IMG/VR virus record: IMGVR_UViG_3300049845_000179
Span: 1-23,009 of that record
DNA length: 23,009 nucleotides
Source: a virus
Reading direction: 5' to 3' (one strand)
Below the pieces are notes generated by a model, which did not search any database, was not told where the DNA came from, and saw nothing but the letters and a program-made list of their open reading frames with translations. Shown here one piece after another: positions 11,470 through 22,734 of this stretch. The translations under genes and the position numbers were made by a program. Within the stretch, counting starts at the first letter, position 1. The number at the start of each line of letters is the position of its first letter.

Positions 11470-11494
11470 GAGTCTCGGTGAGTTCCGGGCACCT

Positions 11495-11501
11495 CTAAAT
11501 A
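11495..11501 (+). promoter_or_regulatory. Late promoter for gp26/gp51 operon
   Basis: Plus-strand CTAAATA, with the expected start near 11507 and a 26-nt leader containing GAGAGG before the ATG at 11533. It is one arm of the inverted repeat 11493-11520. Confidence 0.75.
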
Positions 11502-11511
11502 GGGGCATCGA

Positions 11512-11518
11512 TATTTAG
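11512..11518 (-). promoter_or_regulatory. Late promoter for tape measure and portal genes
   Basis: Minus-strand CTAAATA, with the expected start near 11506, 37 bases upstream of ATG 11469. It forms an inverted repeat CTCTAAATA/TATTTAGAG (11493-11501 and 11512-11520) with the plus-strand promoter. Confidence 0.75.
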
Positions 11519-11532
11519 AGAGGTTTCGGTTC

Positions 11533-12607: not shown

Positions 12608-13858
12608 TCAGGACGTCAGTCGTAAGCCGAGCTGCTTCACCAGCTCTGGCGTTCGAGCCAGGTACTCCGGCGGCACACCGTCAATACCATCATGCACCAT
12701 GATCCCATGCCGATCGATGGCCTCCCAGAGCGCGTACCGAGCCTGCCGCTCCCAAGCAAAGTACGAGCTGAAGATCCTTCGAACGTTCTCACGGTTCGGC
12801 GCGGTCTTCAGGAGCAGTACACAGGCAAGGCGCTTGGCGTTCCTGAACTGATCAGCCAGTTTTTGGAGCTGTGCTCCGATCTGGGTGAGCTCAAATGCCC
12901 CAGCCTCCGGCAGCTCATGCACAATAAGCTCAGCGGTCAGTGAAAAGCCGGCTCCGTTTGTCAGGAGCGAGGGTGAGATCTTGGAGCCATTCGCCAAGCT
13001 CATGATGATGCGCTTGATCAGCGAACGGTTCTCGCTCGTGTAAGGGAGCTTCAGGACATGTTCACACAGGTCACGTCTGAAGTTCTCCTTGTCGTTTAGC
13101 AGCGACAGCAGCGCTGGGAACATAGTCTCCATCGCACCTGGTCGATCTTTGAACTCTCGCTCAATGGTCTGCACCAGGAACTGCACGTACGCCGAATCTA
13201 GATCAATGCCTGATCCAAAGAGCTCCTCACGGAGCCAGCTTGGCCAGGTCTCTATCCCAGAGATTGGCCAAACACTAGTGTCGCGCTGCTTGAGCTTACC
13301 GCTCGGTGCAAAATGGAAGTTCAACTCCGGTCCGTTGGCGAGCAGCCATGACAGCGGATGAACCAGCTCAGGGCGCCCGCGTTCAACAACCGAACGTAAG
13401 AGCTTCGTGCGATCAAGCCCAGGCCGCAACATGACCTTTGAGATCACTGTGCCATCAGGCAGTGGTGGTGGCACGTACCTCAGGGTGTCAGACGTCGTCT
13501 GTAGGACTTTGAGCTCTTCAGGTGGCAGGACCTTTGGGATCAGGGTGCTGATCTCAAAGTTCTCCTCATCGATGTAGAACCCTCGTTCCTTGATGACGAA
13601 GAAGTGTTCCAGTGCCGGCTTGTAATCTCGCACCCAAGCACGAAGGTCCATCAACCGGATCTTGACCTCACAGAACCCGCGCGGTGAACGCCCCTTCACC
13701 GCGGCCGCGTACACCGACGAGAGCCAAAGCACGAGATCCTGACGTGCTTCGGTTCTCGAGCGGTGAAGTCGCTGTAGATCAGGCCAGAACCTGGTCCAGT
13801 GCAGCGGGTGCGACGGCGCAAGCTGATTTTCTGGCTTGAGCCGATAAGGCCTGGTCAC
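12608..13858 (-). CDS. Divergent single-subunit RNA polymerase-like protein
   Basis: 416 aa from GTG 13858, which overlaps the upstream stop (GTGA) with AGG five bases before it; longer in-frame starts lie inside the upstream gene. Three stretches match the palm motifs of T7-type RNA polymerase in the right order. Motif A: GSGIDLDSAYVQFL (D219; T7 'DGSCSGIQHF'). Motif B: NRSLIKRIIMSLANGSK (R278, K282, G291), 10 of 16 residues identical to T7 'RSVTKRSVMTLAYGSK'. Motif C: GIMVHDGIDGVPP (H389, D390; T7 'LIHDSFGTIPA', same HD-to-P spacing). The T7 motif B tyrosine (Y639) is Asn290 here. Length is far below T7 RNAP (883) but near the motif-bearing subunit of the two-part N4 RNAPII. It could instead be a family A DNA polymerase relative. 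Neighbours give no function. Confidence 0.72.
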   Translation of the reverse strand: MTRPYRLKPENQLAPSHPLHWTRFWPDLQRLHRSRTEARQDLVLWLSSVYAAAVKGRSPRGFCEVKIRLMDLRAWVRDYKPALEHFFVIKERGFYIDEENFEISTLIPKVLPPEELKVLQTTSDTLRYVPPPLPDGTVISKVMLRPGLDRTKLLRSVVERGRPELVHPLSWLLANGPELNFHFAPSGKLKQRDTSVWPISGIETWPSWLREELFGSGIDLDSAYVQFLVQTIEREFKDRPGAMETMFPALLSLLNDKENFRRDLCEHVLKLPYTSENRSLIKRIIMSLANGSKISPSLLTNGAGFSLTAELIVHELPEAGAFELTQIGAQLQKLADQFRNAKRLACVLLLKTAPNRENVRRIFSSYFAWERQARYALWEAIDRHGIMVHDGIDGVPPEYLARTPELVKQLGLRLTS

Positions 13859-14064
13859 AGTGCCTGCAGTTCGCGCTTCGTGGAAGTCGCCTTCAGGTCT
13901 TTCTTGAGAGAGCGGTAGATGCCCTTCCAAGACCGTGGGTGCAGGGCGATGGTGCCGTTTTGGACGATGTACCTGACACGGGCGACATTTTGTCCTTGTT
14001 GTTCGGCGGCCACGGCCATTGTGGTGGCGATGGAACGGAGACGTTTGGCTGTTTTGGCATTCAT
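13855..14064 (-). CDS. Small basic protein, 69 aa, unknown
   Basis: Unrecognised, strongly basic protein: MNAKTAKRLRSIATTMAVAA, then QNVARVRYIVQNGTIALHPR, ending in RSLKKDLKATSTKRELQAL. A helix, a short hairpin-like middle and a basic tail suggest RNA or DNA binding, but no known domain is visible. The ribosome site is excellent (AGGAGG five bases before ATG) and a GTTACAAT element lies 23 bases upstream of the ATG, giving a plausible promoter with a short leader. Its stop overlaps the GTG of the polymerase-like gene, so it may be a partner or simply the leader gene of that unit. Confidence 0.75.
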   Translation of the reverse strand: MNAKTAKRLRSIATTMAVAAEQQGQNVARVRYIVQNGTIALHPRSWKGIYRSLKKDLKATSTKRELQAL

Positions 14065-14101: not shown

Positions 14102-14500
14102 TCAAAGCACGGCATCAAGCTTCTGGGTTTTGAGCTTCCGCAGACGCTTCGCTCGGTCCTTACGACGCTGGATCTTCTCTTCTGGGGTAAAGTGCGTCGG
14201 GTGAATCAACAAGGACTTGTTTTCCCGGTGGTGGTCAACGTACTCTGCCGCGCCCTTCAGGAACTCGATGAGCTGCTCGAGCTTGATCCCATGGCGCGGG
14301 GCATTGTTCTCGATGCGCCCAAGAAGCGCGTTGCAACCACGGTGGAGGACAGCCCGAACATGGCCGCCTTTGTGATCGTGATCGAGGACGGCTTGGTCCT
14401 CAGTGCACGCCATCCGACAGATGGCGCAAGTCCAACCTTGCTGTTCAAGGAGCAGCTTTCGGGTTTTCTTTACCTCGGTGGTCTTGAGCTTACGAATCAC
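14102..14500 (-). CDS. 49: Recombination endonuclease VII, T4 gp49-like
   Basis: Holliday-junction and branched-DNA resolving nuclease, 132 aa (T4 gp49 is 157), used to trim DNA for packaging. It contains CAICRMAC (zinc ligands C25, C28), then LDHDHKGGHVRA with catalytic D40, H41 and H43 at the same numbers as T4, then VLHRGCNALLG where C56 and N57 match T4 C61 and N62. The third zinc ligand, Cys in T4 (C58), appears to be His53, giving a CCHC site. The basic C-terminus (RRKDRAKRLRKLKTQK) is shorter than in T4. The start is GTG at 14500; an in-frame stop lies upstream and no other start keeps C25/C28. A palindrome with a late-type box overlaps the start (14499-14516). Confidence 0.88.
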   Translation of the reverse strand: MIRKLKTTEVKKTRKLLLEQQGWTCAICRMACTEDQAVLDHDHKGGHVRAVLHRGCNALLGRIENNAPRHGIKLEQLIEFLKGAAEYVDHHRENKSLLIHPTHFTPEEKIQRRKDRAKRLRKLKTQKLDAVL

Positions 14501-14516
14501 CCAGTATTTACTGGGT
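14499..14516 (-). promoter_or_regulatory. Palindrome with late-type box over endonuclease VII start
   Basis: Perfect 8-bp arms ACCCAGTA/TACTGGGT (14499-14506, 14509-14516) with a two-base centre. The minus strand reads GTAAATA at 14511-14505. The second arm includes the first bases of the GTG start. A late start here would fall near 14499, on the start codon itself, so control by folding in read-through RNA fits better than simple promoter use. Confidence 0.45.
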
Positions 14517-14525
14517 CAGGCTGGG

Positions 14526-14972
14526 TCAGGCGGGTGTCATCATGGACTTGAAGCTTGCCTCGCTCTCAACGCTGAACACGAAGTCCTCGCCTTCAACGGA
14601 TCGTAGAACGAAGTCGCCGCTCTTCAGGGTGACGATGTCGGTACCGTCCCCGTCCAGGTCTAGCTTCACAGGATCGCCATCGTACTGGAACGCCTGGATC
14701 TTGTCGGCGTCGACGTACACCATGAAGCCCTCGCCGTCGGGTTTTTGGTTAGGGTGCAGTGGTGTCAGGGTCTTCTTCAGGTCAGCCGAGCTGAAGACAC
14801 CGAAAGGCTTGCGCTTGTCACCGACGACCTTGAAGGCCTCGTACTTGCCGTCCTTGGTTTGCTTGACCAAGTACTCTGTTGAGTTCCGATAGTTCTTCGG
14901 AGACGCACCGTCCCAGAGTTCCTGAGCGGTCTTGGTCTCTAGCTTCTGTTCGAACAGGTCTCGTAGCTTCAT
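14526..14972 (-). CDS. Unknown late protein, 148 aa
   Basis: Not recognised. It starts MKLRDLFEQKLETKTAQEL; short 'LRDLFE'-type N-termini are common among T4-like virion proteins. The rest looks like an alpha/beta fold: EYLVKQTKDGKYEAFKVVGD, GFMVYVDADKIQAFQYDG, then DLDGDGTDIVTLKSGDFVLR, which contains an Asp-rich DxDGDGTD loop that could bind calcium, and a final strand EDFVFSVESEASF. The ATG has GAGG eight bases upstream. It has a late promoter (14995-15001) and a hairpin that would hide its ribosome site in transcripts from further upstream. It is followed closely by endonuclease VII. Confidence 0.8.
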   Translation of the reverse strand: MKLRDLFEQKLETKTAQELWDGASPKNYRNSTEYLVKQTKDGKYEAFKVVGDKRKPFGVFSSADLKKTLTPLHPNQKPDGEGFMVYVDADKIQAFQYDGDPVKLDLDGDGTDIVTLKSGDFVLRSVEGEDFVFSVESEASFKSMMTPA

Positions 14973-14975
14973 GGT

Positions 14976-15008
14976 CCGGCCTCTTGCATCTGGCTATTTA
15001 GAGGCCGG
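14976..15008 (-). promoter_or_regulatory. Hairpin hiding ribosome site, with late promoter in its loop
   Basis: Arms CCGGCCTCT (14976-14984) and AGAGGCCGG (15000-15008) are perfect 9-bp complements. In minus-strand RNA the later arm is AGAGGCCGG, carrying the GAGG ribosome site of the 148-aa gene. The late start expected near 14989 lies at the loop edge, so only read-through RNA has both arms. Confidence 0.6.
14995..15001 (-). promoter_or_regulatory. Late promoter for 148-aa gene
   Basis: Minus-strand CTAAATA, with the expected start near 14989 and a 17-nt leader containing GAGG before the ATG at 14972. Confidence 0.75.
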
Positions 15009-15013
15009 ATCCC

Positions 15014-15049
15014 CCTCAAGGTCCCGAAGGACCTCGAAGGACCTTGAGG
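15014..15049 (-). terminator. Hairpin after paralog gene, possible terminator
   Basis: Perfect 11-bp arms CCTCAAGGTCC/GGACCTTGAGG (15014-15024, 15039-15049) lie 17 bases beyond the stop of the 102-aa gene. The loop holds another partial copy of the arm sequence, allowing alternative folds. No U-tract follows, so it may need a factor or may act as a 3'-end stabiliser. Confidence 0.5.
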
Positions 15050-15066: not shown

Positions 15067-15375
15067 TCAGGCCTCGAACTTGGCGTTCTTCGGCAGGTCC
15101 TCGGGCTTCATCGTCTGCAGCTTGGCGCCCAGGCGCTCGCGCAGCGTCTCCGGCGCGAGCTGCTTCAGCTTGCCGGCGGTGCCGAGGCCGATGGCGACGG
15201 CCAGGGCCAGCTGCTTGGCGGTGTCGCGCTGGACGCCGGCGATCACGTCGCGGATGAACGCGGCACCGAAGGAAACGCGGGTGCGCTTGGCCATCTGCTC
15301 GGCGGCGGGCAGCCGGGTCTTCTCGACGGGCTTGGCGGTCTTCGCGCTCTTGACGGGGGTCTTGGTCTTGGCCAT
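15067..15375 (-). CDS. Lys/Ala-rich small protein, paralog A, 102 aa
   Basis: Function unknown. The N-terminal ~25 residues form a histone-H1-like basic tail (MAKTKTPVKSAKTAKPVEKT), followed by a core shared with the 95-aa neighbour: MAKRTRVSFGAAFIRDVIAG, then VQRDTAKQLALAVAIGLGTA and GKLKQL, ending LPKNAKFEA. The core has two likely helices, one hydrophobic and small-residue-rich (LALAVAIGLG). A basic tail plus small core hints at a DNA-binding or DNA-condensing protein, but this is inference. Two sampled lines are about 75-78% G+C, against about 58% in gp46, so codon use is unlike the rest. The leader shares TCACCTGGA(A/G)ATCA with its paralog, so the duplication included the ribosome site. 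Confidence 0.78.
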   Translation of the reverse strand: MAKTKTPVKSAKTAKPVEKTRLPAAEQMAKRTRVSFGAAFIRDVIAGVQRDTAKQLALAVAIGLGTAGKLKQLAPETLRERLGAKLQTMKPEDLPKNAKFEA

Positions 15376-15631: not shown

Positions 15632-15919
15632 TCAGGCCACGAACTTGGCGTTCTTCGGCAGCTCGGCGTTGGCCGGCAGCGCGTCGAGGTGGTTCTTGAC
15701 GCGCTCGGCGACGGTCTCGGCCTTCAGCTGCTTCAGCTTGCCGGCGCTGCCGAGGCCCAGGGCGATGGCGAACGCGAGGACCTTGGCGACGTCGCGCTGG
15801 ACGCCGGCCTTGCAGTCACGGATGAAGGCGGAACCGAAGGAAACGCGGGTGCGGTTGGCCATCTGCTCCTTGGCGGGCAGGCGGGCGGGCTTCGCGGCGG
15901 TCTTGGTGGTCTTGGCCAT
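15632..15919 (-). CDS. Lys/Ala-rich small protein, paralog B, 95 aa
   Basis: Function unknown; clear paralog of the 102-aa protein, about 70% identical over the shared core by hand alignment (RTRVSFGSAFIRDCKAGVQR, then DVAKVLAFAIALGLGSAGKL, ending ELPKNAKFVA). Its basic tail is shorter (MAKTTKTAAKPARLPAKEQ), which shows that the tail length varies while the core is kept. Like its paralog it is very GC-rich. The ribosome site is GGAG within the shared leader CACCTGGAGATCA. Two GTTACA elements (16000-16016) lie 80-100 bases upstream, between it and gp46. Confidence 0.78.
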   Translation of the reverse strand: MAKTTKTAAKPARLPAKEQMANRTRVSFGSAFIRDCKAGVQRDVAKVLAFAIALGLGSAGKLKQLKAETVAERVKNHLDALPANAELPKNAKFVA

Positions 15920-16036: not shown

Positions 16037-17776
16037 TCATCCCTCTACTATCTGGCTGAAGCCATGTAGCTTCTGGATCACCATCGAGCGATCAAGGCGG
16101 CCCTGGATGTTTGGGTGATGGCTGATCACGTAGATCGCCATGTCGTCATCACGGCTCTTCTCCTTCAAGATCCGCACCACCGCGTCGATGCCAGAGCCAT
16201 CAAGCTGCCCGTCCAGCTCATCGATCAGTAGCAGGTTTGTCTTGGCATGCAGGTGGTGCAGCACATCACGGAACGCCAAGGCCAACGCCGTGCTAACGCG
16301 CTTCTTCTCACCAGCTGACAGATTCCCGAAATCAAGCTCACGCCCAAACTCCGACACGGTGCAGCTCATGTCAGCATCGAACTTCACGATGTGCGGCAAC
16401 CCAAGGCGACGCGTGTACTCGTTGATCCGGTCGTTCAGGAATGGGATCGTCTTGTTGATGATCCTACGGCGAAGGAAGCTGTCCTTGTTCGTCAGTAGCT
16501 TCAGCAAGAACTGCTGATGCTCGAGGCGTTTCTTGAGCTCGTTGATCTTCTCGTACTCAACAGGCTTCTGTGCTTCTCCCTTGAGACGCTCGAGCGCCTC
16601 AATGTGTGGGTTGATAGCAGCCTTCAGGTCATCGAGCTTGGCTTGCAGTGACACCGCGTTCTCTCTGGCCTTGAGCAGGTTGTCCAGGTTCGGATGCTGG
16701 ATTGCCGCTTCAACCTCAGCAAGCTTGTTTTTCTTGTCCGCTTCCTGTTTCGCCAGCTCATCGGTCTCAGCCTCCAGCCCCAACAGAATGATGCCCTTGG
16801 TCTCGATTGCTCGATGCACCATGACAAGCTTGGCTTGCGCGTCAACAAAGCTCTGCGAGCAGTACGGGCAGCGCGCGTCCTTGAGATGCTCCTCCTCCCC
16901 CATCAGCTTCTCAAGGTCCTTGTTGAGCTGCTGCAGGTCCTTCTTCTTAGGGGCGAGCTTGGCGGCCAGGTAGGCACCGTCCTGCTTCAACTTGGCACGC
17001 TCGTCATGCAGCAGCTTCTCGGACTCGAAGTCAACGTCAGCAATCGTGGCGAGGGTCCGTTCGATGTCACCAATCTCTTTGAGACGGTCAGCCTCCCAGC
17101 GCTTGACGCGCTGCTCAGACTCTTGGGTGTGCTTTGTGTGCAGCTCTTGCGCGACCTCTTGTTGTTTGACCACTGCCTCCTGGACCTTGATATCGCCCTC
17201 GGTCTGTCTGATGAGCTCGCGAAGCTTGAAGGCCTTCTCTGACAGCAGCGTGATGTTGAAGAGCTCCTCGATCTGAGCACGCTGCTGCGCGATGGGCAGC
17301 ATCAGAAACGGTTGGGCGTTCCCGGAGAAGATGATGGTCTTCGTGAAGAGCTCGTACGAGACCCCAACGATGTCCTCAATGAGCTCATCGCACTCAGTGA
17401 CGCCCTTACCTGGCGTGATGTCCTCACCGTTCTTGGTGATCGAGATCGTGTACGCCTCACCACGAGTTCGAATGATCTCGTACTCGTCCCCAGCGCGTTC
17501 AAAGGTCAGACGAACCTCCATGAGCGTGCTCTTGGTGGCGTTCGTGCTGTTGATCAGACGCTGCAGGCTGATGCTGTCGAATGGCTTGTTGTACAGCGCG
17601 TAACAGATCGCATTGATGATGGTGGTCTTGCCGGCGCCGTTCGATCCACCCTGATCTAAGTTCTGACCCTCGATTGAGATTGTGCCAGGTTCAGACAGGT
17701 CAATGGTTGTCTCATTCTGACCAAAGCTCAGGAAGTTCCTGAGCCCAAGCTCTTTGAAGTACAGCGTGCTGCTCAT
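16037..17776 (-). CDS. 46: Recombination endonuclease large subunit, gp46/SbcC-Rad50 family
   Basis: ATPase subunit of the gp46-gp47 nuclease that resects DNA ends for phage recombination-dependent replication and host DNA breakdown. 579 aa (T4 gp46 is 560). Visible: Walker A GGSNGAGKTT (43-52), a long coiled coil (about 190-430) broken by the zinc hook CPYC (303-306), the ABC signature NLSAGEKKR (485-493), Walker B LLLIDELD (515-522) with E521 as the likely catalytic acid, and the H-loop SHH (552-554). All motifs are intact. The ATG overlaps the stop of the 115-aa gene (ATGA), so it is made by translational coupling within the gp47 operon. Confidence 0.96.
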   Translation of the reverse strand: MSSTLYFKELGLRNFLSFGQNETTIDLSEPGTISIEGQNLDQGGSNGAGKTTIINAICYALYNKPFDSISLQRLINSTNATKSTLMEVRLTFERAGDEYEIIRTRGEAYTISITKNGEDITPGKGVTECDELIEDIVGVSYELFTKTIIFSGNAQPFLMLPIAQQRAQIEELFNITLLSEKAFKLRELIRQTEGDIKVQEAVVKQQEVAQELHTKHTQESEQRVKRWEADRLKEIGDIERTLATIADVDFESEKLLHDERAKLKQDGAYLAAKLAPKKKDLQQLNKDLEKLMGEEEHLKDARCPYCSQSFVDAQAKLVMVHRAIETKGIILLGLEAETDELAKQEADKKNKLAEVEAAIQHPNLDNLLKARENAVSLQAKLDDLKAAINPHIEALERLKGEAQKPVEYEKINELKKRLEHQQFLLKLLTNKDSFLRRRIINKTIPFLNDRINEYTRRLGLPHIVKFDADMSCTVSEFGRELDFGNLSAGEKKRVSTALALAFRDVLHHLHAKTNLLLIDELDGQLDGSGIDAVVRILKEKSRDDDMAIYVISHHPNIQGRLDRSMVIQKLHGFSQIVEG

Positions 17777-22137: not shown

Positions 22138-22734
22138 TCATTCTTCGGGTGAAGATCCGGTGAAGGCAGTGTCATCACTGCTTTTGCCGGAATGTCGATC
22201 TTGGTAGTTGAAGGACGGATTCGATCCGGCCTCGATCAGCAGCTCGTCTCGGATGTCCCGTTCACGGCGTTCAGCATCGAGGTACGACAGGAATGAGCGG
22301 TACGACGCGGTTGTGTAGTACGCAAACGGGTTGTCTGATTTCTCTGGGTTGAACTTGTGCCAGTTCGCCACCAAGTTCACCACGGCTGCCGCGACCATGT
22401 CATCACGGTACGAGTACCCAACAAACCATGGATGATACGAGTACCGCTCGGCAATCATCTGCAGGTATCGCGCCATGCGGTCAGTCAGACGGCCGAGTGC
22501 CTTAGCCTCATGAAACGCCTCTAGAAGTTGGGCGTTCGTGACATAGTACTTCTTGGGGGTACTGCTCTTGTCTCGCCGGTACTTGACCTTTTTGGGTTCA
22601 GCTGGCTTGAGCTGATCGACCAGATCAAGGACCGCATTTTCTGGTTCTGCTTCAATCTCGATCTCAAGATCCGGCGGATTCTCAGGCGCCGTGCTTGGGT
22701 CGATCACAGTTGATTTCGTCTTTCGTGCCGCCAT
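22138..22734 (-). CDS. 55: Late sigma factor, T4 gp55 family
   Basis: RNA polymerase sigma factor for late genes, 198 aa (T4 gp55 is 185). The region about 63-165 follows T4 gp55 closely in pattern: YYVTNAQLLEAFHEAKALGR, MARYLQMIAERYSYHPWFVG, YSYRDDMVAAAVVNLVANWH, KFNPEKSDNPFAYYTTASYR, SFLSYLDAERRERD (T4: 'YVNNKELLQAI', 'QEMIADGIEA', '[20 protein letters not shown]'). It has an extra acidic, Pro-rich N-terminus of about 60 residues. The C-terminal T4 clamp-binding peptide (SLDFLYE) is not plainly present; the tail is SSDDTAFTGSSPEE. GAGGAG stands six bases before ATG, and a sigma-70-like promoter lies upstream. It accounts for the CTAAATA boxes in this window. Confidence 0.9.
   Translation of the reverse strand: MAARKTKSTVIDPSTAPENPPDLEIEIEAEPENAVLDLVDQLKPAEPKKVKYRRDKSSTPKKYYVTNAQLLEAFHEAKALGRLTDRMARYLQMIAERYSYHPWFVGYSYRDDMVAAAVVNLVANWHKFNPEKSDNPFAYYTTASYRSFLSYLDAERRERDIRDELLIEAGSNPSFNYQDRHSGKSSDDTAFTGSSPEE

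Follow-up and report, generated by a model that had tools for sequence, protein, structure and literature searches.

A hairpin at the late promoter of a small gene in an uncultured T4-like phage as a probable read-through lock of the T4 type

The element preceding the gene for p148, a 148-residue protein of an uncultured T4-like bacterial virus, is very probably a genuine read-through lock of the T4 type, in which RNA arriving from upstream genes hides a ribosome site that RNA started at the late promoter leaves free. The evidence is computational and comes from the window (the whole stretch of DNA that was analysed, positions 1–23,009 of record IMGVR_UViG_3300049845_000179) and from related phages. 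The sequence elements, the predicted energies, the presence of a gp55 homologue and a comparative excess of pairing that is confined to read-through RNA are directly established. The lock type itself is already known from a few T4 genes, to which p148 most likely adds a further member.

The hairpin before p148 and its surroundings

The elements of the site lie on the minus strand, where the sequence reads GGATCCGGCCTCTAAATAGCCAGATGCAAGAGGCCGGACCATG.

15009–15000, minus strand: upstream arm TCCGGCCTCT, present in read-through RNA only
15002–14995, minus strand: gp55-type late box TCTAAATA, assigned from its enrichment and from box-to-start distances in relatives
14989–14990, minus strand: probable start of the late RNA, 5–6 nt past the box, placed from the spike in box-to-ATG distances at 4–5 nt in the clade and the preference for A at box+5
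14984–14975, minus strand: downstream arm AGAGGCCGGA, the perfect complement of the upstream arm
14984–14980, minus strand: Shine–Dalgarno sequence AGAGG of p148, the first bases of the downstream arm
14972–14970, minus strand: ATG of p148
15014–15049, minus strand: perfect 11-bp stem between p102 and the late box

The arms pair perfectly over 10 bp around a loop of 15 nt. The preliminary description had recognized the perfect repeat but gave arms of 9 bp, and it placed the late box inside the loop; the box is within the hairpin region but shares 3 nt with the upstream arm. TCTAAATA lies directly upstream of p148, 22 nt from its ATG. The window has five copies of CTAAATA, where 0.34 would be expected, and also a gene for a gp55-like late sigma factor, so that the box can soundly be read as a T4-type late promoter. 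Counting 5–6 nt from the box gives a start at 14990 or 14989, in agreement with the value of about 14989 put forward earlier; the upstream arm would end 10–11 nt before this start, a position that derives from spacing.

Polymerase arriving from the co-directional upstream genes (p102, p95 and SbcC) would copy both arms, and the read-through RNA is predicted to pair the Shine–Dalgarno and start region of p148. Opening the Shine–Dalgarno sequence costs 12.9 and 10.8 kcal/mol in modelled read-through RNA of two lengths and 2.6 and 1.5 kcal/mol in modelled RNA starting at 14989. Early and middle read-through RNA would fold, bury the site and be poorly translated into p148. Polymerase programmed by gp55 would initiate at the late box; its RNA would begin just past the upstream arm, the hairpin could not form and p148 would be translated late. 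From these data we infer the exact RNA start, the occurrence of read-through and its effect on translation. The p102 stop codon is 57 nt from the upstream arm, which a ribosome terminating there would not reach, and translation of p102 should therefore not melt the arm. This core reading is the one originally proposed, and the folding energies, the gp55 homologue and the comparative tests described below all support it.

The genes that frame the element, with database matches where found, are as follows.

14102–14500, minus strand: endonuclease VII, a Holliday-junction resolvase of the T4 gp49 family (PF02945, 2.9e-15; phrog_423, 5.8e-36), the next gene downstream of p148
14526–14972, minus strand: p148, a family kept across the clade
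15067–15375, minus strand: p102, co-directional and upstream of p148, with a paralogue at 15632–15919
16037–17776, minus strand: SbcC/gp46-like recombination nuclease subunit (phrog_77, 3.8e-89)
22138–22734, minus strand: gp55-like late sigma factor (phrog_234, 7.4e-30)

The PF02945 match exceeds the family cut-off and places the 14102–14500 product in the endonuclease VII family. Searches of PHROGs and Pfam gave no match for p148. Its structure model (pLDDT 84) had no confident match in the PDB and a single, unnamed viral match (E = 2.6e-6); VIA-align gave at best Z ≤ 4.2 over about 50 residues. The two paralogues at 15067–15375 and 15632–15919 are tandem small basic proteins inserted between SbcC and p148. 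Elsewhere in the window, positions 12608–13930 encode a protein conserved in the clade (416–440 residues, 58–62% identical to the nearest relatives, 23 contigs) that had no match in Pfam or PHROGs; we take its HDG-type and DLDSAY motifs as a hint of a polymerase-like enzyme. A homing-endonuclease-like gene (430–1710; phrog_3339, 8e-100) lies directly 3' of the major capsid gene. At 11494–11519 two late boxes face each other 10 nt apart, serving a divergent pair (a baseplate gene and a 1251-residue gene), and facing boxes are seen again in the relative L007 (20557–20580).

Pairing at SbcC junctions and across late genes

Phage records contained no DNA match to the window and no match to p148, and a query of viral contigs with the single p148 protein also found none; an alignment query reached 13 distant loci. 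Through SbcC and alignment queries a comparative set was assembled from related large phages; it comprises about 40 viral contigs, in which the nearest p148 homologues are 40–47% identical. In these relatives p148 often lies directly behind SbcC, its usual upstream neighbour. In 14 relatives (L008 11738, L009 9595, L016 9557, L018 9975, L027 8468 and others) SbcC overlaps the late box, its TAA stop codon serving also as the first half of TAAATA, which would make read-through from SbcC hard to avoid in them. The arm sequence is not conserved among the distant relatives, which have other pairings instead or, in a sizeable minority, none. Examples of such pairings are AATAGGGGA/TCCCCTATT in L028, ACGGGA/TCCCGT in L052, TCTAATT/AATTAGA in L017 and GTGTAAATAG/CTATTTACAC in L006.

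At 25 junctions between SbcC and a late gene, which come from related phages and so are not wholly independent, the opening cost in read-through RNA minus that in late RNA averaged 5.2 kcal, compared with 2.0 when upstream sequences were swapped (p ≤ 5e-5), and the swap test stays significant with the window left out. Shuffling each junction's own upstream sequence gave 8.5 versus 6.1 (p ≤ 5e-5). Useful pairing relative to shuffles was absent at nine of the 25 (p > 0.3), and co-directional and other sites in the first data set did not differ significantly (Mann–Whitney p = 0.076).

A survey of five phage genomes of 190–350 kb extended the comparison to late genes in general. The 104 late genes that follow a co-directional gene exceed their own shuffles by 1.64 kcal (p = 1e-4), with 20 of them in the top 5%; the 36 divergent late genes show a non-significant +0.27 kcal (p = 0.14), and 45 unclassified late genes are also enriched (+1.67 kcal). 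Perfect stems of at least 6 bp number 46 against 24 expected from within-genome swaps (p = 2e-4). Between roughly 10 nt upstream of the box and box+4, pairing with the initiation region stands at about 1.3–2.7 times the control value; the ratio is 1.26–1.28 at the two positions that follow, close to 1.0 at box+7 and box+8, and mostly 0.5–0.9 deeper in the late RNA. The pairing thus fades just past the probable RNA start, which is the boundary predicted by the lock mechanism. T4 gene e, I-TevII and segB, identified by their protein sequences, ranked among the top sites without tuning. Taken as sets, the sites of T4 (p = 1e-4), Atu_ph07 (2e-4) and Paride (5e-3) showed the excess; P-HM2, with five testable sites, showed no enrichment.

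These data suggest that related phages may use the read-through lock widely, notably on genes whose products cut DNA junctions, and the excess over many late genes looks like general late gating. The further prediction that p148 is harmful or useless early in infection does not follow, since the lock appears to be widespread.

Resolvase genes and late boxes next to the start codon

In many relatives the place of endonuclease VII is taken by a PDDEXK nuclease (PF24608; phrog_244, 'RusA-like Holliday junction resolvase'). In its 20 late-box leaders, read-through RNA has an opening cost of 10.9 kcal, which drops to 5.6 when upstream sequences are swapped and compares with 3.2 for late RNA (p ≤ 5e-5); the leader in L067 contains a perfect 12-bp stem. 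The same measure gives 16.6 versus 3.9 kcal for T4 gene 49. In L007, p148 is followed, where others have endonuclease VII, by a GIY-YIG-like gene (12913–13746) that has a late box of its own and an apparent remnant of an endonuclease VII start upstream of it.

A second hairpin is present in the window before the resolvase gene itself.

14500–14515, minus strand: hairpin CCCAGT-AAAT-ACTGGG, with the late box TAAATA (14510–14505) inside

It ends in the GTG start of endonuclease VII, 4 nt past the box. Of the 12 endonuclease VII genes, 11 have their start codon enclosed in a hairpin of 5–9 bp (p = 5e-5 by swapping, p = 0.002 by synonymous recoding), and in L005 and L051 the hairpin stays paired through G–U changes. 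The exception is the window, where CCCAGT/ACTGGG surrounds the box and the start is GTG.

Box-to-ATG distances are bimodal: one group peaks at 20–35 nt, and another spikes at exactly 4 nt (16 cases where 0.2 are expected). Sites with the 4–5-nt spacing include the window (14500–14515), L005 6004, L009 12129, L015 10455, L051 8899, L052 8296, L061 8366, L064 8243, L066 3109 and sites in the genome pieces L104–L176. In the five genomes, 24 of the 25 genes with this spacing lack a Shine–Dalgarno sequence. Misplaced start codons were rejected as the cause, as none of the 25 has an alternative in-frame ATG with a Shine–Dalgarno sequence within 40 codons. In the translations of several of these genes (endonuclease VII, a PAAR-like protein and a protein of about 780 residues) a conserved N-terminus begins right after the start. 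With RNA starting 5–6 nt past the box, in keeping with the preference for A at box+5, these mRNAs would begin at or within one nucleotide of the AUG. Together with the lack of Shine–Dalgarno sequences across the clade, this suggests that they are candidate leaderless late mRNAs. The 4-nt class was rejected as a general trait of T4-like phages: T4 has no such site, nor do the 400 kb of Atu_ph07 that were searched, and Paride and P-HM2 have two each.

A joint reading, which we favour with some reserve, is that in this clade of large uncultured T4-like phages late genes start in two modes, one with a Shine–Dalgarno sequence that read-through RNA locks and one leaderless, that both of the unrelated resolvase families (endonuclease VII and PDDEXK) are gated and that the start codon of endonuclease VII is enclosed in a hairpin. 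The hairpin of the read-through RNA could not form in the leaderless late RNA. Such a reading suggests that the synthesis of resolvases only late is a conserved need that has been solved repeatedly (compare T4 gene 49).

Alternative explanations and known systems

The window is rich in inverted repeats of at least 10 bp with loops of 3–40 nt (eight versus 0.88 in shuffles), so that the repeat by itself is weak evidence, and the exact arms are kept in no close relative, none having been found. A chance repeat in a GC-rich leader is nevertheless very improbable. Perfect stems of at least 10 bp at the position of the late box and leader arise in 0.085% of swapped upstream/leader pairs. Among the 118 late-box genes of the first 41 loci, the p148 site has the lowest hybridisation p (0.016, the resolution floor of the control pool), and its duplex energy of -24.2 is surpassed by one L041 site only (-26.0). 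The tests on orthologous junctions and across genomes are, moreover, significant without the p148 site. A dyad that acts in DNA, as a protein-binding site or a cruciform at the late promoter, would fit the symmetry of perfect Watson–Crick dyads; the duplex energies of the sense and the antisense strand are not significantly different and so do not discriminate between function in RNA and in DNA, and the facing late boxes at 11494 and 11519 make dyads of their own. The dyads are not centred on the late box, however, the excess pairing aims at the initiation region and fades just past the RNA start, the arm sequences vary between phages, unlike a protein site, and the endonuclease VII hairpins with G–U changes retain their pairing. 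We consider a role in DNA unlikely.

Marginally less likely again is that the hairpin mainly forms the 3' end of the upstream transcript as a terminator, RNase block or insulator. The strong 11-bp stem just upstream would suit such a role, as would the terminator-like hairpins followed by T's after SbcC in L015 and L036. Against it, the downstream arm contains the Shine–Dalgarno sequence and in relatives the pairing follows the position of the initiation region and that of the RNA start. An intrinsic terminator was rejected because a U run is absent both after 14975 and after the 15014–15049 stem. A split ribosome site was likewise rejected: T4 genes 25 and 38 have split ribosome sites with a hairpin in the initiation region (PMC3014915) that lies between the Shine–Dalgarno sequence and the AUG and aids translation, whereas the p148 hairpin holds the Shine–Dalgarno sequence inside the stem, not free.

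The read-through lock resembles established T4 cases. In T4 gene e the Shine–Dalgarno sequence is hidden by an RNA helix whose upstream strand contains the late promoter or promoters, and late transcripts without this 5' part are well translated (PMC3014915). Our opening measure recovers gene e (14.9 versus 2.5 kcal), although p148 is another gene in another phage group and function has been proved for T4 only; the T4 late box is TATAAATA, and here it is mostly [C/G]TAAATA. T4 gene 49 is a textbook case (PMC3014915; its regulation is cited in PMC2988022), and its leader AATAAATACCCTTA...TAAGGTAAGGGTTTATTATG folds in read-through RNA only, a comparison drawn from reviews and the T4 sequence. 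In the window the 10-bp lock is instead on p148; endonuclease VII follows and lacks a Shine–Dalgarno sequence, its start codon lying 4 nt past a late box of its own. With e, 49 and I-TevII recovered as positive controls, the analogy to e, soc and 49 drawn at the outset is supported. In T4 soc, I-TevI/II/III and segB and in Aeh1 mobE, early or middle RNA sequesters the ribosome site, and transcription from a late promoter leaves out the first strand (PMC2988022, PMC3014915). These are individual cases, mostly homing endonucleases, whereas a clade-wide excess was measured here.

If real, the 4-nt class would represent leaderless late mRNAs for gp55-type phages, a class not seen in T4 here. The wider value of the analysis lies in the apparent spread of the lock over late genes, its apparent recurrence on unrelated resolvase families and the candidate leaderless genes. 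Read-through locks in T4 are textbook material described one gene at a time. Sequence alone suffices to measure the signature of the lock from genome to genome, including the position where pairing ends, so that how far the lock extends and which genes it targets (resolvases and homing endonucleases, for example) become testable in uncultured phages.
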